From: a virus | IMG/VR virus record: IMGVR_UViG_3300031840_000439 | Span: 1-44,479 of that record | Reading direction: 5' to 3' (one strand) | DNA: 44,479 nucleotides | Notes under the pieces: model-generated | The model's database searches: none | Told to the model about the DNA's origin: nothing | The model's input: the letters and a program-made list of their open reading frames with translations, nothing else | Translations under genes and position numbers: made by a program | Shown: in pieces, positions 12,761 to 29,658 of the stretch | Layout of the letters: every line of letters starts with the position of its first letter | How positions within the stretch are numbered: position 1 is the stretch's first letter

Positions 12761-12835
12761 TGGCTCCCCAGGATGGGCTCGAACCACCGACCGAGTGATT
12801 AACAGTCACTTGCTCTACCTCTGAGCTACTGAGGA
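12761..12835 (-). tRNA. tRNA-Asn (GTT)
   Basis: The minus strand folds as a 75-base cloverleaf: acceptor TCCTCAG/CTGGGGA, D arm GCTC/GAGC, anticodon stem AGTGA/TCACT with loop CTGTTAA (anticodon GTT), T arm GGTGG/CCATC with TTCGAGC, discriminator G and an encoded CCA. It lies four bases from tRNA-Thr. Confidence 0.93.
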
Positions 12836-12839
12836 ATAT

Positions 12840-12915
12840 TGGTGCCGGCGGTAGGAGTTGAACCCACGACCTTGGCATTACAAATGCCCTGCTCTACCAA
12901 CTGAGCTACACCGGC
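12840..12915 (-). tRNA. tRNA-Thr (TGT)
   Basis: A 76-base cloverleaf on the minus strand: acceptor GCCGGTG/CGCCGGC, D arm GCTC/GAGC, anticodon stem GGGCA/TGCCA (outer G-A mismatch) with loop TTTGTAA (anticodon TGT), T arm GTGGG/CCTAC with TTCAACT, discriminator A and encoded CCA. A one-base shift would read GTA (Tyr), but the stem register and discriminator favour Thr. Confidence 0.88.
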
Positions 12916-12924
12916 ATGATAAAA

Positions 12925-13146
12925 CTATCGTCGATGAGACTTTTCTCTTTGTGGACGATAACCCTTAGGCCAACTAGGTTGACGAGAACCGAGTTTCTTC
13001 ACTCGCTCACGAAACTCATCGTTCTCTTTTTTGAGATATGACATCTCAATTTGGTCCTCACGAGTCTCCCTACGAAGCTCGTCATACTTTGCCTGAAAGA
13101 AATTTTCAGACCGTTCTCGGTCAGTTACGTCAGTCACGTCAGTCAC
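12925..13146 (-). CDS. Small charged coiled-coil protein, unknown
   Basis: The 73-residue protein starts at GTG 13146 after GGAGAAAAGA and has three TDV/TDR units at the N-terminus (MTDVTDVTDRE), a charged helix likely to form a coiled coil (about 15-50), and a basic C-terminus with SWPKGYRPQREK. It is the first gene after the host-type promoter at 13178-13206, so it is probably made early. No family recognised. Confidence 0.7.
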   Translation of the reverse strand: MTDVTDVTDRERSENFFQAKYDELRRETREDQIEMSYLKKENDEFRERVKKLGSRQPSWPKGYRPQREKSHRR

Positions 13147-13177
13147 TCTTTTCTCCTATGTGAATGTAACAGTGTTA

Positions 13178-13206
13178 ATAATACTAAATTTAAGTGGGAA
13201 TGTCAA
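13178..13206 (-). promoter_or_regulatory. Host sigma70-type (early) promoter
   Basis: Minus strand: TTGACA (13201-13206), a 17-base spacer and TATTAT (13178-13183), one mismatch to the -10 consensus. The start would be near 13171, about 25 bases ahead of the GTG at 13146. It would drive the small coiled-coil protein, both tRNAs and probably thyX. Confidence 0.85.
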
Positions 13207-13212
13207 TACCTT

Positions 13213-13434
13213 TTAGATAGGTAATTGAGCGTGTTTTGGTAGGAAATTTAATTCCCTTGCATTTGCCTCAATCTTCTCTTTGAGAGATTTAGAAATAAGT
13301 CTTTTAATAGTATCTGGTTCAATATTCTCTTGTTCACAATACCAAAGAACTGCATCCATATGAGTAATATTTTTCTCTAAAACTATTTTCTCTATATTCA
13401 TAGAGAAAGTCTTTGCGGTTTTCAGTGGCATCAT
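13213..13434 (-). CDS. 33: Late transcription coactivator gp33-like
   Basis: The 73-residue protein aligns well with the middle and end of T4 gp33: IEKIVLEKNITHMDAVLWYC matches IEKMVEEFGMSYLEA, and SKSLKEKIEANARELNFL matches the T4 segment ending EKIQSEAIDENLL. T4 gp33 links RNA polymerase at TATAAATA promoters to the sliding clamp; such promoters are present here. It is shorter than T4 gp33 (112) and lacks the N-terminal extension. AGGA precedes ATG 13434. Two hairpins, the second with a T run, lie immediately upstream. Confidence 0.75.
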   Translation of the reverse strand: MMPLKTAKTFSMNIEKIVLEKNITHMDAVLWYCEQENIEPDTIKRLISKSLKEKIEANARELNFLPKHAQLPI

Positions 13435-13444
13435 TGTATCCTAT

Positions 13445-13513
13445 AAAAAAGGCCCGTTGGGTAAAGGTGGGCCATGCCTCATTGAGTTGGCTTGTTGGGT
13501 AAAGGTAAGCCAA
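13445..13513 (-). terminator. Tandem hairpins with identical loops; the distal one has a terminator-like T run
   Basis: Minus strand: hairpin 1 TTGGCTT/AAGCCAA (13507-13513 with 13487-13493) and hairpin 2 GGCCC/GGGCC (13469-13473 with 13451-13455) share the same 13-base loop ACCTTTACCCAAC. Hairpin 2 is followed by six T (13445-13450). They separate the winged-helix gene from gp33 and resemble the terminal hairpin of the tmRNA coding piece. They may act as attenuator, terminator or RNA processing/stability elements. Confidence 0.75.
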
Positions 13514-13526
13514 TCCTTATTAAGTT

Positions 13527-13784
13527 TTACGCAGCGCGCAGTGCGGCGTAACCAGCGGCTACAGTTGCACGAGTCGGCGTACCAAGACGATACTTCATAT
13601 ACGTCTCACCATCAAAAGAAGATACGCGTTTGTTGAGGAAAATAGCATAACCCTCTGAACGAAGTTTGCTGATAACTGCACGAACATTCTTCACACCATA
13701 ACGAGCAGTGATTTGCTTGGCAGTTAGTTCTGCACCGTTTTCCAGTGCATTGATGACACTCTGTGTCTGAGTCTTAGTAGTCAT
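13527..13784 (-). CDS. Small winged-helix/HTH protein
   Basis: The 85-residue protein (MTTKTQTQSVINALENGAEL) has a helix-turn-helix core, LTAKQITARYGVKNVRAVIS, and a wing-like YAIFLNKRVSSFDG. ATG 13784 is preferred over 13805 because AGGAG lies ten bases ahead of it. Similar proteins occur in cyanophages. It is a candidate regulator placed between the tmRNA and gp33. The C-terminus AALRAA resembles a ClpX-type degron and the end of the neighbouring tmRNA tag, so quick turnover is possible but unproven. Confidence 0.75.
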   Translation of the reverse strand: MTTKTQTQSVINALENGAELTAKQITARYGVKNVRAVISKLRSEGYAIFLNKRVSSFDGETYMKYRLGTPTRATVAAGYAALRAA

Positions 13785-13809
13785 AATAAATTTTCTCCTA
13801 TTCATGACA

Positions 13810-14080
13810 ATTTAAATGGGCCCGTTGAGTAACAAGGCGGTGCCCATGCCCCGTGAAGGTCTACGCAGCTAGCGCAAAGTCCTCAGTGTAGTAATCGTCA
13901 TTTGCGTTTACTTTAGTTTGCTAGTTTTACGACATTCGCCTGTCGAGTTGTCTGTTCCCCTTCTTTCACCACGTCGAAACCTTGTCAGCCCCCCAAAGAT
14001 ATCTCGTGAGAAATACCTTTGGTGGAGCTGGGGAGAATCGAACTCCCGTCCGCAATGCCTCCAGTTCACTTCTTACAACC
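13810..14080 (-). ncRNA. ssrA: Circularly permuted two-piece tmRNA (ssrA)
   Basis: On the minus strand the acceptor piece comes first: GGACGGGAGTTCGATTCTCC, then CCAGCTCCACCA ending at 14020, with T stem GGGAG/CTCCC. After an intervening segment of about 27 bases the coding piece begins GGGGCTGACAAGGTTTCGAC at 13992. GGGGCTG pairs with CAGCTCC to rebuild the alanine-type acceptor stem. A tag frame at 13905-13861 and a terminal hairpin near 13810-13850 complete it. This order (3' half before 5' half) is that of permuted alphaproteobacterial tmRNA. It rescues stalled ribosomes and tags their products for proteolysis. The outer ends are approximate. Confidence 0.92.
13861..13905 (-). other. tmRNA tag reading frame: ANDDYYTEDFALAA
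   Basis: Resume codon GCA at 13905, then fourteen codons in all to TAG at 13863-13861, giving ANDDYYTEDFALAA. With the charged alanine the tag is A plus this peptide. The AND start and the ALAA end match bacterial SsrA tags; the middle is acidic and aromatic. The sequence around the resume codon (AAACGCAAATGACGA) resembles that of E. coli ssrA. Confidence 0.92.
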
Positions 14081-14088
14081 ATAAATAC

Positions 14089-14117
14089 AGTATACTAGAA
14101 TCCTACCCCTCTGTCAA
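14089..14117 (-). promoter_or_regulatory. Host sigma70-type promoter of the tmRNA
   Basis: Minus strand: TTGACA (14112-14117), a 17-base spacer, TATACT (14089-14094). The start would be near 14082, directly ahead of the acceptor piece. This supports early expression by host RNA polymerase. Confidence 0.88.
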
Positions 14118-21957: not shown

Positions 21958-22270
21958 ATTCCTTCAAATAATGAGACAACAAACCATTCAAAAGCAAAGT
22001 AAGACCAACAGCGTTAACAATTAACAATGCACGATCATTCCAAAGAATCGAAACAATAAACCAACCAAAAAGACCTATGCCATGAAATGCAAGATTCCAA
22101 GGATATAAATTGTTTGCTGTCAAAAAAAGACCAACAATCAAAAATGCACTTGAAATCCACTTTAGATACCAACTTGGACCACTTGTAGGTGTAACTGTTT
22201 TTGTTGGTATTTCATGAGTCTTTAATTCAATCGTACTAGTTCTTACACTAGTATCAGTATCCGAGCTCAA
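21944..22270 (-). CDS. Small inner-membrane protein, unknown
   Basis: The 108-residue protein has a polar, Thr/Ser-rich N-terminus (1-33) and about three hydrophobic segments: YLKWISSAFLIVGLFL, FHGIGLFGWFIVSIL and LLIVNAVGLTLLLNGLL, with a conserved WNDRALLIVNAVG. Such membrane proteins recur in marine phages without known function. It begins 17 bases inside the end of rpsU, so the two are probably translated together. Confidence 0.75.
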   Translation of the reverse strand: MSSDTDTSVRTSTIELKTHEIPTKTVTPTSGPSWYLKWISSAFLIVGLFLTANNLYPWNLAFHGIGLFGWFIVSILWNDRALLIVNAVGLTLLLNGLLSHYLKEYVGG

Positions 22271-22457
22271 TTTTTCTTTTCTCCAAAGACTTTAAATAAC
22301 GTCTACGACCAGCAGCCTTTTCTAATCTTCGTTTCTCGCCCTTTGACCTGAAACGTTCACGTTCTCGTATTTCTGTATAAAAACCATCTTCTTGCAATTT
22401 CTTCTTCAAAATTCTAAGTGCAGCATCGACATTATCATTACGAACATCAACTTTCAT
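22254..22457 (-). CDS. rpsU: Ribosomal protein bS21
   Basis: The 67-residue protein is a full bS21: KVDVRNDNVDAALRILKKKL, then RERERFRSKGEKRRLEKAAG and RRRYLKSLEKRK. bS21 sits near the anti-Shine-Dalgarno end of 16S rRNA and helps mRNA selection. SAR11 phage HTVC008M and other phages carry it, and phage copies can enter host ribosomes. Here it may favour phage mRNAs. It lies downstream of the host-type promoter at 23008-23036. Confidence 0.97.
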   Translation of the reverse strand: MKVDVRNDNVDAALRILKKKLQEDGFYTEIRERERFRSKGEKRRLEKAAGRRRYLKSLEKRKIELGY

Positions 22458-22466
22458 ATTTCATCC

Positions 22467-22970
22467 TTATTGTTGTATACTATGATTGACTCTCAACTTG
22501 AGAGTATTACCATATGGTTTGAACGCAGTACGTGTTGTGTAGTTCAAACCATTAAATGTGTATGAAACCAAATAACCATCGATGAATGTTTTCTGTTGAA
22601 TACGGTACGTTGTATTACAAACCACACGATTTTCATAGTGGGTGTTAGGATTAGACTGGTTACCAGCAATCATAGCACCAACAACAGCACCGGCCGCAGT
22701 AGCAGCAGTGTTACCAGAACCCTTACCAATTTGATTTCCTATAATACCACCAATGACACCACCAACGATGTTGTTAGCAGTAAAACCACTACCATTCCTT
22801 TGAATAGGAACTAATTGTTGATTACAATTATTTACAGGAACACGAACCTCAGATACACTATAGTTCGGTTGAACGTTTGTGATAGGCACCTCTACGATAT
22901 CGTTAGCGTTAGCGTAAGCTGCAGGAACGAAAAGTGTTGCCATCACTCCCGCTAAAATTGTTTTTTTCAT
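22467..22970 (-). CDS. Glycine-zipper outer-membrane protein (17-kDa surface antigen type)
   Basis: The 167-residue protein has a signal peptide (MKKTILAGVMATLFVPAAYA) and a glycine-zipper 2TM segment, NIVGGVIGGIIGNQIGKGSG followed by AAGAVVGAMIAG. A C-terminal domain follows with single Cys residues (NNCNQQ, VVCNTT). It resembles 17-kDa antigen/SlyB-type envelope proteins of Alphaproteobacteria. It may coat or alter the infected cell surface, for example against superinfection; that is inference. It has its own host-type promoter. Confidence 0.85.
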   Translation of the reverse strand: MKKTILAGVMATLFVPAAYANANDIVEVPITNVQPNYSVSEVRVPVNNCNQQLVPIQRNGSGFTANNIVGGVIGGIIGNQIGKGSGNTAATAAGAVVGAMIAGNQSNPNTHYENRVVCNTTYRIQQKTFIDGYLVSYTFNGLNYTTRTAFKPYGNTLKLRVNHSIQQ

Positions 22971-23256: not shown

Positions 23257-23285
23257 ATGTTAACAAATTAAACACTCTTTGTCAA
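23257..23285 (-). promoter_or_regulatory. Host sigma70-type promoter at the 3' end of the curli-cyclase cassette
   Basis: Minus strand: TTGACA (23280-23285), a 17-base spacer, TAACAT (23257-23262). The TTGACA overlaps the stop codon of the last cassette gene. It would drive the 61-residue membrane protein and possibly genes beyond. Confidence 0.7.
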
Positions 23286-23422
23286 TAAAAAAGAGAGGTA
23301 AGACATAGAAATCCTAAAAGAACTCCAGCGCCTATTCCTATAACTAATGCCTTCAATAGATCCATATCAAACCATAAAGGTATGTTTCTTGTTGGTCCTT
23401 TAGTAAAATTGCGTGGTTTCAT
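23282..23422 (-). CDS. 46-residue single-pass membrane protein
   Basis: The ATG overlaps the TGA of the cyclase gene (ATGA). The product is MKPRNFTKGPTRNIPLWFDM, then a hydrophobic helix DLLKALVIGIGAGVLLGFL and CLTSLFY, so basic outside and one membrane span. The four-base coupling supports a real gene that ends the curli-cyclase cassette. It might assist the cyclase or secretion parts; no direct evidence. Confidence 0.65.
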   Translation of the reverse strand: MKPRNFTKGPTRNIPLWFDMDLLKALVIGIGAGVLLGFLCLTSLFY

Positions 23423-25473
23423 TTCGTCGTTGCCCTATAGACGCCATCCCAGTCTTCAGGGAGGCCTTCTTTTTGTAGATGTTCTATTCTATCTCCCATC
23501 ATGGCATAATAATCTTTCATCATACCATTAAACTCAAACTCTAGGTCATTGAGCCATCTTAGTGCTAACTCCCAAGCTTGTTTACGATAGAAGAACAAAA
23601 ACTTCTCATGTTGTCTTTGTGCCATATCATAGTTCATGATGTTTATAAGGTTTTCATGAGTCCCTAAAGATGTGTAAATATTAACACCTTCTGTTTTACC
23701 TTTAACCGCAATTTTATCTAATTCTAATATTACAAATTCATCCTCCATTTCTTTGGCGGTTTCCTCGCCAAGAATTATTTTCATGCCATATTCTTTACTT
23801 TGTCCTTCAAGTCTGGCTGCAAGATTAACTGCATCTCCCAAACAACTATAGTCAAATCTTTGATTACTACCCATGTTGCCCACGACTACATCTCCTGTAT
23901 TTAATCCAATACCGATGTTTATAGGAAGAGAATTCTCTTTCTTCAGCTCCACATTTAAACCCTCAAGATGTTTTAACATCTCATGAGAAGACTTAATTGC
24001 CAATCTACGTTGTTCTTTAACGTCAAGTGGAGCATTCCAAAATGCCATTATGCAGTCACCCATATATTTATCTATTGTACCATCATTAGTCATGATGATA
24101 TCTGTCATAGGAGTCAAAAACCTATTGATGAGCTTTGTTAATCCTTGTGGATCAGTTTTGAATTGCTCACTGATAGGTGTAAATCCTCGTATGTCACAAA
24201 ACAACAATGTTAGTTCTCTTGTCTCACCTCCTAATTTTAATAGGTCTGGATTCTTCTGTAACTTCTTAACCATTGCCGGTGCAAGATAATGTTCAAACTG
24301 TTTTTTGATTTCCATTCTCTTTTTGTGTTCTTCCATGAATCTTAAAAATGCTGCAATTGACCAAGCAAAGAACACTGTAATTACAGGATAACTCCAATCC
24401 ACTAAATAATCGTGTTTGGTGAAAAGATATGAACTTCCATAAAATAAACCCACAACTGTTGCGGGCATAAGTATCGCACCAAAGTACCAAGGTAACAATA
24501 ACACAACAACCATCAATAAGAGTGCAAGACCAAACGATGAACCTAATTCTGCAAGGTTGGTCCAATATGGTCTAGTGATGTTTCTGCCTGTCATCATTGT
24601 CGCAACAGAAGCACCAATAAGGTCATGTGAATAGATTACACCAACAGGCGTAGATACTGCACTGTCAAGGCCAGATGCTGTTATTGACACGATTACTATC
24701 TTGCCAGTCAGGTCTGGTAATTCCTCGTGCAATGCATGGACTGGAGTTTTCCATTTGAAGTCCAACCATATATTACCATGTGCGTCTGTATCAATCATCT
24801 TGAATTTAGGTATGCGTAGTTTCTCAACACCCGCCACACTTGTTTTCATTTGATACGATATGTCACCAGCGGCCATTCGTAATATTTCCATACTCATCGA
24901 TGGATACAATTTATCTTCTACTGCAACTACCAATGGCATACGGCGAACTACACCATCCTTCTCTGGTGCGATAATCATCATACCTACACCATGTGATTTT
25001 TCTGCCAATAAAGGTATAGGACCGATTGCGCCTGGATACTGATATACCCAACCATTCCATGGCTCACCCACTGTTGCAACACCTCGTGTGACACCACTAT
25101 TATCGTTCTGTGTGGTAGGTATTTGTCCTATGATAGTTGGAGTTTGACTAAGAACATCTGCCAGTATGTCATCTCCACCAAATCTATCAGGTTGTGCAAA
25201 GAGTATAGGAAGCACCACCATACCCGCACCAGCCTCATAGAGTCGTATTATTTCTTTAGATAGTTCTTCTCTGTTCCATGGCCATTGACCTTTTTTCTTT
25301 AGAGTTTCATTATTGATCTCTATTGTGACAAGATTATCTAAACTCTGTTCTGTCTGGTTTCTTTGATGTTGGTCTAATGCTTTGAGTCTTACCACATCAA
25401 GAAACCACGGATCCACAAAACGAACTGTGCATAGAATCAGAATTACTGCAAATGATATAATCCATTTCTTCAT
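23419..25473 (-). CDS. CHASE2-domain class III adenylate/guanylate cyclase
   Basis: The 684-residue protein has an N-terminal membrane segment, an extracytoplasmic CHASE2 sensor (about 30-290), three membrane helices (about 311-378), a linker helix and a class III cyclase domain (about 415-600). Catalytic features look intact: metal Asp427 (CDIRGF) and Asp473 (YMGDCIMAFW), Lys469, Ser543 in FDYSCLGDAVN at the adenine-contact position (usually Thr), Asn550 and Arg554. It should make cAMP, with cGMP less likely. The sensor would read a periplasmic signal. FecR, CsgG and curlin genes precede it. A cyclase is very unusual in a phage. Confidence 0.92.
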   Translation of the reverse strand: MKKWIISFAVILILCTVRFVDPWFLDVVRLKALDQHQRNQTEQSLDNLVTIEINNETLKKKGQWPWNREELSKEIIRLYEAGAGMVVLPILFAQPDRFGGDDILADVLSQTPTIIGQIPTTQNDNSGVTRGVATVGEPWNGWVYQYPGAIGPIPLLAEKSHGVGMMIIAPEKDGVVRRMPLVVAVEDKLYPSMSMEILRMAAGDISYQMKTSVAGVEKLRIPKFKMIDTDAHGNIWLDFKWKTPVHALHEELPDLTGKIVIVSITASGLDSAVSTPVGVIYSHDLIGASVATMMTGRNITRPYWTNLAELGSSFGLALLLMVVVLLLPWYFGAILMPATVVGLFYGSSYLFTKHDYLVDWSYPVITVFFAWSIAAFLRFMEEHKKRMEIKKQFEHYLAPAMVKKLQKNPDLLKLGGETRELTLLFCDIRGFTPISEQFKTDPQGLTKLINRFLTPMTDIIMTNDGTIDKYMGDCIMAFWNAPLDVKEQRRLAIKSSHEMLKHLEGLNVELKKENSLPINIGIGLNTGDVVVGNMGSNQRFDYSCLGDAVNLAARLEGQSKEYGMKIILGEETAKEMEDEFVILELDKIAVKGKTEGVNIYTSLGTHENLINIMNYDMAQRQHEKFLFFYRKQAWELALRWLNDLEFEFNGMMKDYYAMMGDRIEHLQKEGLPEDWDGVYRATTK

Positions 25474-25474
25474 G

Positions 25475-26260
25475 TCAGTTTCCTTGTGTCACCGAGAGAC
25501 TGCATCCTCCCACTGTCGCACAATTTTGCGTTAGACTATACGACTGTGCTGTGCCACCCTGTTGTTTTAAATCCAGAGTTGTTGAATAAGAACCCGATAT
25601 TGTTACGGTAGCACTGTGTGCAGCATTACCAGTTTGTACCATATCAATATTATTAGTATCGTTATTCACAGTCAAGTTCATTGTTTTACTCACGTTACTA
25701 TCTTGTCGCATGTAAATATCGTTACTATCTCCGTATATATAGGTCACCATGCTATGTTCATGTCCAGAGTTATTTGACCTTTGACTTCCTAAAAATGTAT
25801 TACTTGACCCGTGAATGTCAAGTATTATAGAGTGGCCACCATGCTCTACTGTATCAAACGAAGCAACACCGCCAGTTGTCACGGTATATCCCTGATAAAA
25901 CTTAACATCATTACTATCACCCTGTATGTGGAATTCAAACCTGTCTCCACCACAAGTTGATTGATTGCACAATTGTTTTACTAACAGTGAATTACTATCA
26001 CCGTCGAGATCACCACCCCATGATGCACCAGAGCCCCAAGCAGAAGTATACCCAACGTAACCGTCTTCACCCTCTTGTGTTATGTTAATGGTATTGTTTC
26101 CACCACCATGGCTCATATTAATTTCATTATTATTTCCATCTACATCCACAGTGATACTATTAGAATTACCACTGGTAACTTGAGTGATTATAACTGAATT
26201 ATTTGCAAAAGCAATATTACTCAGACTGATAGATAGTAATAGTGTTAGAAGCGTCTTCAT
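25475..26260 (-). CDS. Second curlin-like secreted repeat protein
   Basis: The 261-residue protein has a Sec signal (MKTLLTLLLSISLSNIAFAN) and irregular curlin-type repeats with Asn/Gln/Gly/Ser strands (GNSNSITVDVDGNNNEINMS, GDSNDVKF, GDSNDIYMRQDSN, LTVNNDTNNIDMVQTGN). Four cysteines occur as two pairs (LCNQSTCGG, NCATVGGCS). It is a candidate amyloid subunit or nucleator exported by the neighbouring CsgG. It starts 44 bases inside fecR and ends one base before the cyclase. More diverged than the first curlin-like protein. Confidence 0.78.
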   Translation of the reverse strand: MKTLLTLLLSISLSNIAFANNSVIITQVTSGNSNSITVDVDGNNNEINMSHGGGNNTINITQEGEDGYVGYTSAWGSGASWGGDLDGDSNSLLVKQLCNQSTCGGDRFEFHIQGDSNDVKFYQGYTVTTGGVASFDTVEHGGHSIILDIHGSSNTFLGSQRSNNSGHEHSMVTYIYGDSNDIYMRQDSNVSKTMNLTVNNDTNNIDMVQTGNAAHSATVTISGSYSTTLDLKQQGGTAQSYSLTQNCATVGGCSLSVTQGN

Positions 26261-27281
26261 CTCTTGTTGTTATCTCCGGCACAGGTATTCCACCCTGTGA
26301 TAAATTTATTGTATATCCATAGTCGTTTATCAAGTCTAGTTCTATTGTACTGTTACCCACTCTCCGTATTATGCGTGTTGTGTTACCGTCCACTATCGTA
26401 TTGACCTGTGTTGATCTGTTGAACCCGCTGGTTCGGCCATCTACCAATTCTGCCTGTGCTAAGGCAAGAGCAATCTGGTCAAGAATATTACCAAGTAACT
26501 CTACATCTAAATCATTAATGTCCAACTCGTTGAACTCAAAAAGGTCTTCCTCCAACTCGTTTTTATCCAACCCTGCAAACTCAAGAAAATCAATGTCTAG
26601 CAAATTCTTATTTTTCCTTGAATCACTAAGCAACACTATAATCTTCTTTTTTGGTGGCCTGATAATCAATAAGTTGTTAATCTGGTCCAGTGTTAAATCA
26701 AGTATCACTGGACTGGATGGTTTTGCCTCTCCTGTACCAACCATTGTTGACTGAAATGCTTGGTTCATTATAACCTGTCCTACATCAGTCTCCACAGATA
26801 TCTTACCCACTGAACCATCAGCGTTAGGTAACAAAATGATAAGAGACTTACCAACCTCATCCACAGTCATACTAAACGCTGTTCCCAACACACCAATCCT
26901 TGCTGTCGGTGTCCGAATGTCTACATTCTGATTGCTCAGCTTCGCAATATTACCACTCGCATAGCGCACTGTACCAAGTGCAATATTCATAACCAACTTC
27001 GATCCCTCTTTAGAATTGGGATCATAAACAAACTCATCAATAACCAAGGAACTGTGAGAGCTCACAGCTACATTAGTGTCATCTACAAACTTGATACCAA
27101 CATCACCTTTACCAGTTTTCACTGTGTCCTTAAATTCAATATCTGAGCCCTTTTGTAAAACAGATTTCTCACCTGACCTTTCTACAGAGGCATTACCCTT
27201 ATGTTTTACCACATTCCCAATAGCACCATAAGCACTGATGCTAAAGAGAATGAGACTAATCGTCCATAGTAACTGTAACAC
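26217..27281 (-). CDS. FecR-domain secreted protein
   Basis: The 354-residue protein starts at GTG 27281, has a signal peptide (ISLILFSISAYGA) and a FecR domain in the first half: KGNASVERSGEKSVLQKGSD, then FKDTVKTGKGDVGIKFVDDT, ALGTVRYASG and VDIRTPTARIGVLGTAFSM. The second half is acidic (NELEEDLFEFNELDINDLDV) and ends with a curlin-like strand. FecR-like proteins next to CHASE2 cyclases occur in bacteria, suggesting a sensor pair; a role in fibre attachment is also possible. It overlaps both neighbours in other frames. Confidence 0.85.
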   Translation of the reverse strand: MLQLLWTISLILFSISAYGAIGNVVKHKGNASVERSGEKSVLQKGSDIEFKDTVKTGKGDVGIKFVDDTNVAVSSHSSLVIDEFVYDPNSKEGSKLVMNIALGTVRYASGNIAKLSNQNVDIRTPTARIGVLGTAFSMTVDEVGKSLIILLPNADGSVGKISVETDVGQVIMNQAFQSTMVGTGEAKPSSPVILDLTLDQINNLLIIRPPKKKIIVLLSDSRKNKNLLDIDFLEFAGLDKNELEEDLFEFNELDINDLDVELLGNILDQIALALAQAELVDGRTSGFNRSTQVNTIVDGNTTRIIRRVGNSTIELDLINDYGYTINLSQGGIPVPEITTRDEDASNTITIYQSE

Positions 27282-27939
27282 TGTGATTTGACCCCACTGT
27301 TGTCACATCTACAGTTCCATCATAGGCACCACCCTGTGTAATTGAAAATGTGCTAGATGAACCAGTGTGATGAAGAGTTGTGTCTTGATCAGCAGCACCA
27401 GTGTGTGTTGATGTAATCGTATTACTCCCACCGATAGCTGTGATGTTCGTCACCTTCTTGTCACCAACACCCATTGTAGCGGTGCTGTTTTCATTTACTG
27501 TAATAGTATTGCTATCGCCTGTCGCAATGATATCAATATCAGCATCATCGGTTGCAGCATTATTACCCACGTTCACTGTTGTTGTATTTGAACTACCAGT
27601 GATTGTTTGAATAATACTATTGTCATCAGATGCAGAGTTAGCACCAACAGATACGTTAGACGTATTACTATTACCTGTCTGATTTATTGTCAATGTCTGT
27701 GTTGCACCGACAACAGATGCAGCAATGGTGTTAGTGTTACCAACCTGATCAATGTCTAACGTCTGGCTGTCACCTGTTAGGGTAGCATCAGTTGTATCAT
27801 CACCAAACTTGTTAGTTTGTCCATCTTGATTGATGTTTACAGTCAGGCTCGCACCAGACTGTGTTATATAAACGTCACTTGCATAACTCACACTACACAT
27901 AACGAAATAAGCGAGTATTGTAAGTATGCCCGTTCTCAT
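27256..27939 (-). CDS. Curlin-like (CsgA/CsgB-type) secreted repeat protein
   Basis: The 227-residue protein has a signal peptide (ILAYFVMCSVSYA) and regular strand repeats of the curlin kind: ITQSGASLTVNINQDGQTN, LDIDQVGNTNTIAAS, LTINQTGNSNTSNV, ITGSSNTTTVNVG and ITQGGAYDG. Asn, Gln, Thr and Gly dominate and no Cys remains after signal removal. It is the best candidate for the main amyloid subunit. It follows csgG with a four-base overlap. Confidence 0.85.
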   Translation of the reverse strand: MRTGILTILAYFVMCSVSYASDVYITQSGASLTVNINQDGQTNKFGDDTTDATLTGDSQTLDIDQVGNTNTIAASVVGATQTLTINQTGNSNTSNVSVGANSASDDNSIIQTITGSSNTTTVNVGNNAATDDADIDIIATGDSNTITVNENSTATMGVGDKKVTNITAIGGSNTITSTHTGAADQDTTLHHTGSSSTFSITQGGAYDGTVDVTTVGSNHSVTVTMDD

Positions 27940-28730
27940 TTTTCTTCCTCCTTTTTAAATTCCCATAATTGTTTTTTCTCGCCTTCCTTGATTATCTCAA
28001 TAACTGCTTGTTCAATTGCCTTTCTTACTGCATAGGTTATGGATTCATTGTCTGTTATTCCTGCTTCCGTTTCCAACAAATTAGTTCCCATGTCTAAAAA
28101 CTTAAAAACTGTAGCAGATAATTTTGTACTTAAAATAGTTTTCTGAGAACTAACTGCCAACAAAACTTCACCTGTCTGTACAGATATTAATCGTAGAGCT
28201 ACTGTTACCATATCCTTACGATATTCATCAGATGCACCTATACCCAGATATCTTACACCCATACCGCCTGTACTTGTATTGGTGTCATATCCGACTATGC
28301 CTCCTGTCAACAATACTCCAGCAAACAATAGAGGTTTAATTTTTTCTGCTTTATCTCCATCATAGCTTTTTCTTGTGTTTCGTATAATCTGTCTTTCTTT
28401 TAACAGACTTTCCAGTTCCATTCTTTCTATAACTTGAAACCACTCGCCCTTACCTGCTTTCTTTAGGGCTTGGATTAACCATATATCTCCACCTTGTGTC
28501 ACTGCACTACTTAGTAATGCAAGTGATGAGCTGGATTTTCTTTGTCCTGTTACGTCATTGAACTTATATACTGCCACCGGCACCTTACGTTCAGGTAGTG
28601 TTATGTTGTATAGTTCATCTACTAACGGTGCAGTGCTTGGTGCAGGTGCATCCTGTGGTTGGATGCTCGCACAGCTAGAAAGTAAAGTCGCCAACAGGAA
28701 CAGTGATATTAGTCGTACTACCATTTGCAT
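27936..28730 (-). CDS. csgG: CsgG-like curli secretion channel lipoprotein
   Basis: At 264 residues it is close to E. coli CsgG (277). A lipoprotein signal (LLATLLSSC, lipid Cys20) leads to the hallmark VPVAVYKFNDVTGQRKSSSS, then AVTQGGDIWLIQALKKAGKG, EWFQVIERMELESLLKERQI and TNTSTGGMGVRYLGIG. CsgG forms the nonameric outer-membrane export pore for curlin. The final 40 residues are highly charged. It starts 56 bases inside csgF, an unusual order (F then G) with strong overlap. Confidence 0.96.
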   Translation of the reverse strand: MQMVVRLISLFLLATLLSSCASIQPQDAPAPSTAPLVDELYNITLPERKVPVAVYKFNDVTGQRKSSSSLALLSSAVTQGGDIWLIQALKKAGKGEWFQVIERMELESLLKERQIIRNTRKSYDGDKAEKIKPLLFAGVLLTGGIVGYDTNTSTGGMGVRYLGIGASDEYRKDMVTVALRLISVQTGEVLLAVSSQKTILSTKLSATVFKFLDMGTNLLETEAGITDNESITYAVRKAIEQAVIEIIKEGEKKQLWEFKKEEEK

Positions 28731-29118
28731 CCATAATTGTTAAATCTACGGTATCGTCGCTTTTGGTATAACTGATTGTTGTTCCCTCAAAAGTAACGGT
28801 GCCTGATGTTGAAGCATCTTCTCCGAACATACTGTCAACCAACTGCTTAGATAGTTGGGCATATATTCTAGACTCTACGTTTTTCATAAATTTAGAAAGG
28901 TTTGTATTTGCCTCATCTCGTATTCTTTGACGTTCAGCAGCTGCCTTCTTTTCTAAAATTGCTGTCTTTCTGGAAAACTCTTGGTTCTCTATTGTCAACA
29001 TATGAGCACTATACCCATTTCCACTGAAAGCTGGTGATTTGAATGTGTGTGTCAATTGAATTGCGTGTGAGTTTACAGACAACAAACAAAGAAGAAAAAG
29101 TGAAACTCTAAACATCAT
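28675..29118 (-). CDS. csgF: CsgF-like curli assembly protein
   Basis: The 147-residue protein has a signal peptide (FLLCLLSVNSHA) and the CsgF start, LTHTFKSPAFSGNGYSAHML, matching the family pattern of a NPSFGG-like segment that plugs CsgG. A helix follows (KTAILEKKAAAERQRIRDEA), then a strand-rich C-terminus. CsgF couples secretion to nucleation at the cell surface. E. coli CsgF is 138 residues. The NPSFGG core is degenerate (SPAFSG). Confidence 0.88.
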   Translation of the reverse strand: MMFRVSLFLLCLLSVNSHAIQLTHTFKSPAFSGNGYSAHMLTIENQEFSRKTAILEKKAAAERQRIRDEANTNLSKFMKNVESRIYAQLSKQLVDSMFGEDASTSGTVTFEGTTISYTKSDDTVDLTIMDANGSTTNITVPVGDFTF

Positions 29119-29374
29119 CCTTCTCTGTCTGTTTTTTTGATTCTTGTATTTCTATGATAGTGTGTATTTTTTGGTCGAGTCGAATCATGTCGTTGTCCAA
29201 CATTCTTACTCGATCAATCAATCCTATCAAAGTTCCCAGAGCTTTATCTAAACTTGGAAGAATGTTATTTGTAACAAACTTCCAAATATAGAAAATAAAA
29301 TAACCCATGCCCATAGCAACAACTACGGGTATACCGTATTGATTTACTAATTCTACTACATTTGTTATATCCAT
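29108..29374 (-). CDS. Membrane/coiled-coil protein, paralogue of the next upstream gene
   Basis: The 88-residue protein has an N-terminal membrane helix (GIPVVVAMGMGYFIFYIWKF), a coiled coil (about 45-75, LGTLIGLIDRVRMLDNDMIR) and a charged tail. It shares layout and the NDMIRLD / NEIVRLD motif with the protein at 29380-29658. Such pairs resemble small phage holin-like or scaffold membrane proteins. Here they head the curli cassette, and this one overlaps csgF by 11 bases. Confidence 0.75.
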   Translation of the reverse strand: MDITNVVELVNQYGIPVVVAMGMGYFIFYIWKFVTNNILPSLDKALGTLIGLIDRVRMLDNDMIRLDQKIHTIIEIQESKKQTEKDDV

Positions 29375-29379
29375 AACTA

Positions 29380-29658
29380 TTAGTCTTTTCTAGAATCGTC
29401 TTTCCCATCGGCAGCAGACATTCTTCGTGTATCGGGTTTTACTCCTAGCACATGACATACTAGAGCGTCTAACCTCACGATTTCATTATTAATAGTTTTT
29501 ATACGGTTGTCTAAAGATGAAATCATACCATTTAAACTTTCAGCACTACTCACAACCGAATCAAGTATATACTTTAACAATAATATGATAAAAAACCCGC
29601 CGATAATGACGGCCGCGATAGAAAAGCCGAGGTCAGCGATTAAGCTAAACGCCTCCAT
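29380..29658 (-). CDS. Membrane/coiled-coil protein, first gene of the curli-cyclase cassette
   Basis: The 92-residue protein has an N-terminal membrane helix (LGFSIAAVIIGGFFIILLLK), then SSLDNRIKTINNEIVRLDAL (coiled coil) and a charged tail. GGAGAG precedes ATG 29658. The 33-base gap upstream holds no convincing promoter, so the cassette is probably read through from upstream or from a promoter I cannot recognise. It is a paralogue of the 29108 protein. Confidence 0.75.
   Translation of the reverse strand: MEAFSLIADLGFSIAAVIIGGFFIILLLKYILDSVVSSAESLNGMISSLDNRIKTINNEIVRLDALVCHVLGVKPDTRRMSAADGKDDSRKD

Follow-up and report, generated by a model that had tools for sequence, protein, structure and literature searches.

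A curli cassette of pelagiphages was published in 2020 (PMC7029224), and in 2022 the gene order HK-CsgF-CsgG-CsgA/B-FecR-CsgA/B-cyclase, in which HK stands for histidine kinase, was described in podo- and myophages, along with oceanic transcripts of the cassette and a probable origin in Alphaproteobacteria (PMC9599517). For the phage Melnitz, a lysis-timing pore has been proposed (PMC9004378). Since 2020, no function has gained acceptance for the curli genes of these abundant ocean phages. Here we describe such a cassette in the IMG/VR virus record IMGVR_UViG_3300031840_000439, a linear record of 44.5 kb whose full 44,479 nucleotides (nt) we refer to as the window. Like the pelagiphage type VIII cassette (PMC9599517, PMC7029224), it consists of two small genes followed by genes for CsgF, CsgG, a CsgA/B-like protein, FecR, a second CsgA/B-like protein, and a cyclase. 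A first-pass annotation of the window had noted that curli clusters occur in pelagimyophages, and the same order is indeed annotated in the phages HTVC008M and Melnitz. Both the cassette and its coupling to FecR and a cyclase are therefore already known, the latter since 2022 (PMC9599517). What is new relative to the earlier papers is a curlin-like tail on FecR, a swap of the cyclase catalytic domain, and the finding that the two small leading proteins (tmA and tmB) are not kinases; a term search of PMC9599517 found neither the tail nor the swap.

The first-pass annotation listed nine tightly packed genes in one direction, and this description holds. The open reading frames lie on the minus strand (29658→23282) in the order tmA, tmB, csgF, csgG, cur1, fecR, cur2, CHASE2 cyclase (AC), and a 46-residue peptide (Table 1). 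Six of the eight junctions overlap: tmB-csgF by 11 nt, csgF-csgG by 56 nt, csgG-cur1 by 4 nt, cur1-fecR by 26 nt (fecR starting with GTG), fecR-cur2 by 44 nt, and AC-peptide by 4 nt. The remaining two are spaced by 5 nt (tmA-tmB) and 1 nt (cur2-AC). The gene identities were also right, as CsgF, CsgG, FecR, CHASE2, and cyclase all scored above the Pfam cut-offs. Given its weak conservation, the membership of the 46-residue frame in the cassette is doubtful.

The feature that may join the exporter to the signalling genes lies at the end of FecR. The AlphaFold2 model of this protein (mean pLDDT, 77.5) contains a confident FecR domain at residues ∼22 to 200 and a C-terminal beta domain at ∼280 to 354, separated by a flexible acidic linker (∼205 to 265; median of 84 residues in relatives). 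A strict C-terminal motif, [IVL]x[IVL]xQx0-3, closes 137 of 153 phage FecR proteins, as against 3.1 on average and 11 at most when the last 40 residues are shuffled, and it is rare at the C-termini of CsgF (9/161), CsgG (0/161), and the cyclase (1/138). A scoring matrix built from phage curlin strands placed its best site within the C-terminal ∼60 residues in 120 of the 153 FecR proteins, versus 28 in shuffles. When profiles were aligned with hhalign, the final 42 columns of the FecR tail paired with the final 43 residues of cur1, C-terminus on C-terminus and in register, with a score of 27.7 compared to at most 14.7 in 200 column shuffles and 15.6 for the reversed profile. The tail is kept in all 25 loci without cur2 (25/25), and several bacterial curlins have a C-terminus like it. 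These comparisons indicate that the phage FecR C-terminus is a curlin-like repeat of the C-terminal type. Because FecR ends in this way, the coupling between exporter and signalling pair is tighter than gene order alone would imply. The tail offers a concrete, testable link between fiber, pore, and cyclase and connects the signalling genes with what is secreted. A pentapeptide-like pattern in the linker exceeded shuffles in only part of the relatives and was left unproven.

The exporter itself has the parts of a curli system. CsgG has the lipobox (LSSC) of an outer-membrane lipoprotein pore in addition to the matches in Table 1. CsgF aligns with positions 3 to 132 of its 132-position profile, and its N-terminal mature segment is conserved across relatives; a phmmer search of CsgF against PDB found no CsgF chain. 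Taken alone, cur1 and cur2 of the window fall below the Curlin_rpt cut-off (E=0.02 and 0.004, respectively). In the cur1 alignment, however, 26 of the 33 sequences match Curlin_rpt (best, 1e-7), and the AlphaFold2 model of cur1 is a repetitive beta fold (pLDDT, 86.4; pTM, 0.82). Judged from these features, secretion of curlin-like fibers is likely the most economical function of the cassette.

A synteny survey, which the first-pass annotation had proposed, drew on four viral scans, two cultured-phage records, and the window, giving 289 sequences in 198 non-redundant sets. The scans keep the best query matches and the loci are related, so the counts are not independent events. The order tmA-tmB-csgF-csgG-cur-fecR-(cur)-AC was nearly invariant across the 198 loci and complete in 64, with the others mostly truncated at a contig end or missing tmA/tmB or cur2. 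Among loci that CsgG alone had recruited and whose flanks were long enough, we found csgF beside csgG in 99/99, a curlin gene in 87/87, FecR in 74/74, the cyclase in 37/38, and tmA/tmB in 72/95. In ∼25 loci fecR and AC are directly adjacent, mostly with a 4-nt overlap and no room for cur2, implying that FecR and the cyclase form a unit into which the second curlin is optionally inserted. Degradation in most relatives, which the annotation had named as evidence against its proposal, was not seen: the genes are intact, and all those with measurable rates are under purifying selection. Constraint on fecR and AC is among the strongest in the cassette (omega of about 0.07 to 0.08 versus the closest relative). 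With the order repeated in dozens of different contigs and purifying selection acting on its genes, the arrangement goes far beyond what chance would give.

Similarity searches with the FecR domain point in two directions. Foldseek matched the anti-sigma sensors PupR and BDI_1681 as well as a cell-surface anchoring domain, 5ix9 (40% identity over 62 columns), and the sequence profile also matches 5ix9, there labelled an antifreeze protein (E=0.003). We take 5ix9 to be an adhesin domain of Marinomonas primoryensis. Retention modules of adhesins are periplasmic and keep the adhesin in its outer-membrane pore (PMC13090378). The fold matches and this precedent lead to two related readings of FecR, as a sensor or as an anchor. 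Of the two, sensing is tentatively preferred as the best explanation, with anchoring as its first rival.

We favor, tentatively and at somewhat below even confidence, a curli exporter whose FecR is linked to the amyloid and informs the cyclase of the state of export or of the fiber. The infected cell would build a curli-type (type VIII) exporter in which CsgG and CsgF form the outer-membrane pore, and curlin-like 1 and 2 would cross it and polymerize outside. A soluble periplasmic FecR, its last repeat imitating the C-terminal repeat of curlin, would join the curlin. Joining might occur in the pore, which the folded FecR domain could not pass and whose channel the ∼80-residue linker would be long enough to thread, or it might involve periplasmic curlin subunits awaiting export. 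Through the FecR domain, information on this state would then reach CHASE2 in the inner-membrane cyclase and alter cyclic AMP (cAMP). The steps differ in strength: secretion and amyloid formation are likely, contact between FecR and curlin is proposed with moderate confidence, and signalling from FecR to CHASE2 may be proposed with moderate confidence by precedent. The most specific form of the proposal, that FecR is a transenvelope sensor whose tail becomes part of curlin during or after export while its tethered domain drives the CHASE2 cyclase, is doubtful. If it were true, the virus would encode a second-messenger circuit that reads out extracellular amyloid, and exchange of the cyclase domain and of cur2 would tune output and fiber type separately. 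As for the signalling-secretion system suggested by the first-pass annotation, a conserved curli-type exporter locked to a FecR/CHASE2-cyclase pair was found, but the coupling is not new (PMC9599517, 2022).

Several observations count against a sensor of secreted amyloid. Cells infected with Melnitz were checked for clumping and none was seen (PMC9004378). The cur1 model has no significant fold match in PDB, and the FecR linker is modelled with low confidence. The hhalign probability for the FecR tail is modest (40%), though the controls score far lower. Some relatives of the cyclase may be weak enzymes (see below). No cAMP-binding protein (PF00027) was found in the window or in 17 related phage records, and so any cAMP effector must be a host protein. 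Lastly, CsgE (PF10627) is absent, as the annotation had stated, from the window and also from 13 long viral records. Alphaproteobacterial systems without CsgE have been reported too (PMC9599517), and its absence therefore does not exclude membership in type VIII. The Pfam scan of the cassette returned no CsgD or CsgC, for which no search with dedicated models was made.

Alternatively, FecR could be a structural anchor or nucleator only, functionally equivalent to CsgB, with its folded domain kept in the periplasm, as in the retention modules of giant adhesins, and its tail templating the fiber while the cyclase is regulated separately. This account, which we regard as unlikely, draws on the structural and profile match to the M. 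primoryensis anchoring domain, the curlin-like tail with its long linker, and the lack of a recognized CsgB in the cassette. However, it does not sit well with the inseparability of FecR and the cyclase, whose genes mostly overlap by 4 nt where cur2 is absent, nor with the pairing of FecR and CHASE2 in bacteria that have no curli, and the anti-sigma sensor folds match FecR equally well.

We consider it highly unlikely that CsgG acts as a pore without amyloid, that is, as a lysis-timing, pinholin-like, or secretin-like channel. This was proposed for Melnitz from models of phage CsgG/CsgF and from gene position (PMC9004378), and the absence of CsgE fits it. Yet curlin-like genes stand beside csgG in every locus with room for them and are under purifying selection, and CsgF keeps its conserved N-terminal segment. 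Moreover, csgA and csgB were counted as absent in PMC9004378, whereas the Melnitz record (MZ577097.1; L051) annotates two curlin-associated repeat proteins, QZI94830.1 and QZI94832.1, beside csgG. The FecR tail ranks the amyloid reading above the bare pore, and it would also explain why FecR is never missing from the cassettes examined. A very remote prospect is that the pore imports nutrients such as iron complexes or cofactors under an iron-type FecR regulator, one reading of PMC9599517 suggested by the family name and by an open pore without CsgE. Against it, the N terminus of FecR is a signal-peptide-like helix that runs straight into the FecR domain, with no anti-sigma part in the cytoplasm; the cassette yielded no gene for a TonB-type receptor; and the curlin-like tail would be left unexplained.

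The cyclase of the window carries the class III residues D427, K469, D473, S543, N550, and R554, covering the two metal Asp residues, the substrate Lys and Ser, and the transition-state Asn and Arg. Of 138 relatives, 109 keep the core four catalytic residues and 29 have Ser in place of the transition-state Asn; the substrate position is Asp (not Ser or Thr) also in 29, with the listed examples carrying both changes. Judged by these residues, the Ser-type relatives may be weak enzymes. Between the window and locus L008, whose CsgG proteins are 94% identical, cyclase identity averages ∼75% over CHASE2 and ∼40% past residue ∼390, and 176 cyclase pairs share at least 60% identity in CHASE2 yet at most 50% in the catalytic domain. 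This drop implies that the output domain was exchanged under a conserved sensor; the alignments indicate that the catalytic domain is swapped among three types, and they point to modular exchange of the output domain. The cur2 gene is swapped independently of the cyclase, as cur2 identity is 43% where the cyclase is 95% identical and 93% where the cyclase is 59% identical. Exchange of cur2 between otherwise close cassettes resembles that of a variable surface antigen.

Our analysis calls the published histidine kinase annotation into question. In the window, HTVC008M, and Melnitz, the slot labelled histidine kinase in PMC9599517 is occupied by transmembrane/coiled-coil proteins of ∼90 residues, the podophage genes of that study lying outside this comparison. 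Immediately upstream of csgF, tmA and tmB belong to a family of unassigned function, and in their relatives a conserved, polar, coiled-coil-like stretch comes after a hydrophobic segment. A kinase identity was rejected given their small size and the absence of Pfam dimerization and ATPase domains.

TABLE 1 Features of the curli cassette in the window
Feature	Position	Strand	Evidence
tmA, 92-residue one-transmembrane coiled-coil protein	29380..29658	-	phrog_18771 E=3e-24; no kinase domain in Pfam
tmB, 88-residue paralogue of tmA	29108..29374	-	phrog_18771 E=3e-31; alignment
CsgF, secreted curli assembly factor	28675..29118	-	PF10614 E=1.3e-22, nearly the whole profile
CsgG, outer-membrane lipoprotein pore of type VIII secretion	27936..28730	-	PF03783 E=1e-56; E. 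coli CsgG structures E=2e-46
cur1 (curlin-like 1), secreted repeat protein, predicted beta-solenoid	27256..27939	-	Curlin_rpt weak; AlphaFold2 model
FecR-domain periplasmic protein with C-terminal curlin-like repeat	26217..27281	-	PF04773 E=2e-6; AlphaFold2, Foldseek; tail tests
Curlin-like C-terminal repeat of FecR, last 44 residues	26220..26351	-	hhalign, C-end to C-end with cur1
cur2 (curlin-like 2), hypervariable second fiber protein, absent in some loci	25475..26260	-	
CHASE2-class III adenylyl cyclase (AC)	23419..25473	-	Pfam CHASE2 E=9e-35, cyclase E=1e-19; CyaB structure 3r5g E=1e-32; residue table
46-residue one-transmembrane peptide	23282..23422	-	relative in 8/150 loci

Bacterial curli operons (E. 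coli, Alphaproteobacteria) share CsgG, CsgF, and curlin-repeat proteins with the phage cassette, which differs from them in lacking CsgE and in adding FecR, the CHASE2 cyclase, and tmA/tmB. Five alphaproteobacterial csg loci contained curlins, CsgG, and CsgF, whereas FecR, the cyclase, and tmA/tmB were missing from all of them. The signalling pair has parallels of its own. A FecR gene lies within ∼3.4 kb in 18 of 40 alphaproteobacterial CHASE2 loci, and there are only ∼1.3 FecR genes per genome. The BiofilmReg operon of Burkholderia pairs FecR with a CHASE2 kinase and has a biofilm link (PMC5192318), and CHASE2 cyclases of Sinorhizobium meliloti respond through the outer-membrane barrel NsrA (PMC13001267). 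As in the phage, the Burkholderia and the 18 alphaproteobacterial loci place a periplasmic FecR beside a CHASE2 inner-membrane enzyme, in biofilm- or surface-related settings. Unlike the phage protein, FecRs beside bacterial CHASE2 cyclases have no curlin-like C-terminus; even a looser form of the motif occurs in only 1 of 13. A scan of genome contigs for bacterial FecR relatives yielded only phage contigs binned into metagenome-assembled genomes and one unrelated, larger protein. The simplest account of the cassette's origin would be that a csg operon joined a pre-existing FecR-CHASE2 pair and that a curlin repeat was either acquired or retained by FecR. No intermediate was found.

The cassette also occurs in viral contigs of jumbo-phage size (L089, 338,435 bases; L226, 306,714 bases). 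Three GTDB genome contigs labelled Rhodobacteraceae or Pirellulales contain the phage cassette (L289, L290, and L291; FZLS01000092, JADHSL010000081, and FZLS01000023) and look like phage contigs binned into bacterial genomes.

Judging by its gene content, the window comes from a marine, T4-like myophage with Melnitz and HTVC008M among its relatives. It encodes a single-strand DNA binding protein (66% identical to the Melnitz counterpart), tail tube, tape measure, baseplate cap, PhoH, thymidylate synthase, and ribonucleotide reductase, and megablast of phage records found no close DNA relative. The T4-like late promoter NATAAATA was not enriched and did not occur directly upstream of the cassette, and sigma-70-like sites were at chance level. 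Elsewhere on the minus strand, positions 12761 to 14112 hold tRNA-Asn, tRNA-Thr, and a tmRNA gene with the tag ANDDYYTEDFALAA; Melnitz likewise has an ssrA gene. Directly downstream of the cassette on the same strand is a ribosomal protein S21-like gene (22254 to 22457; phrog_21469), and a secreted glycine-zipper protein of the 17-kDa surface antigen type (22467 to 22970, minus strand) adjoins the cassette.

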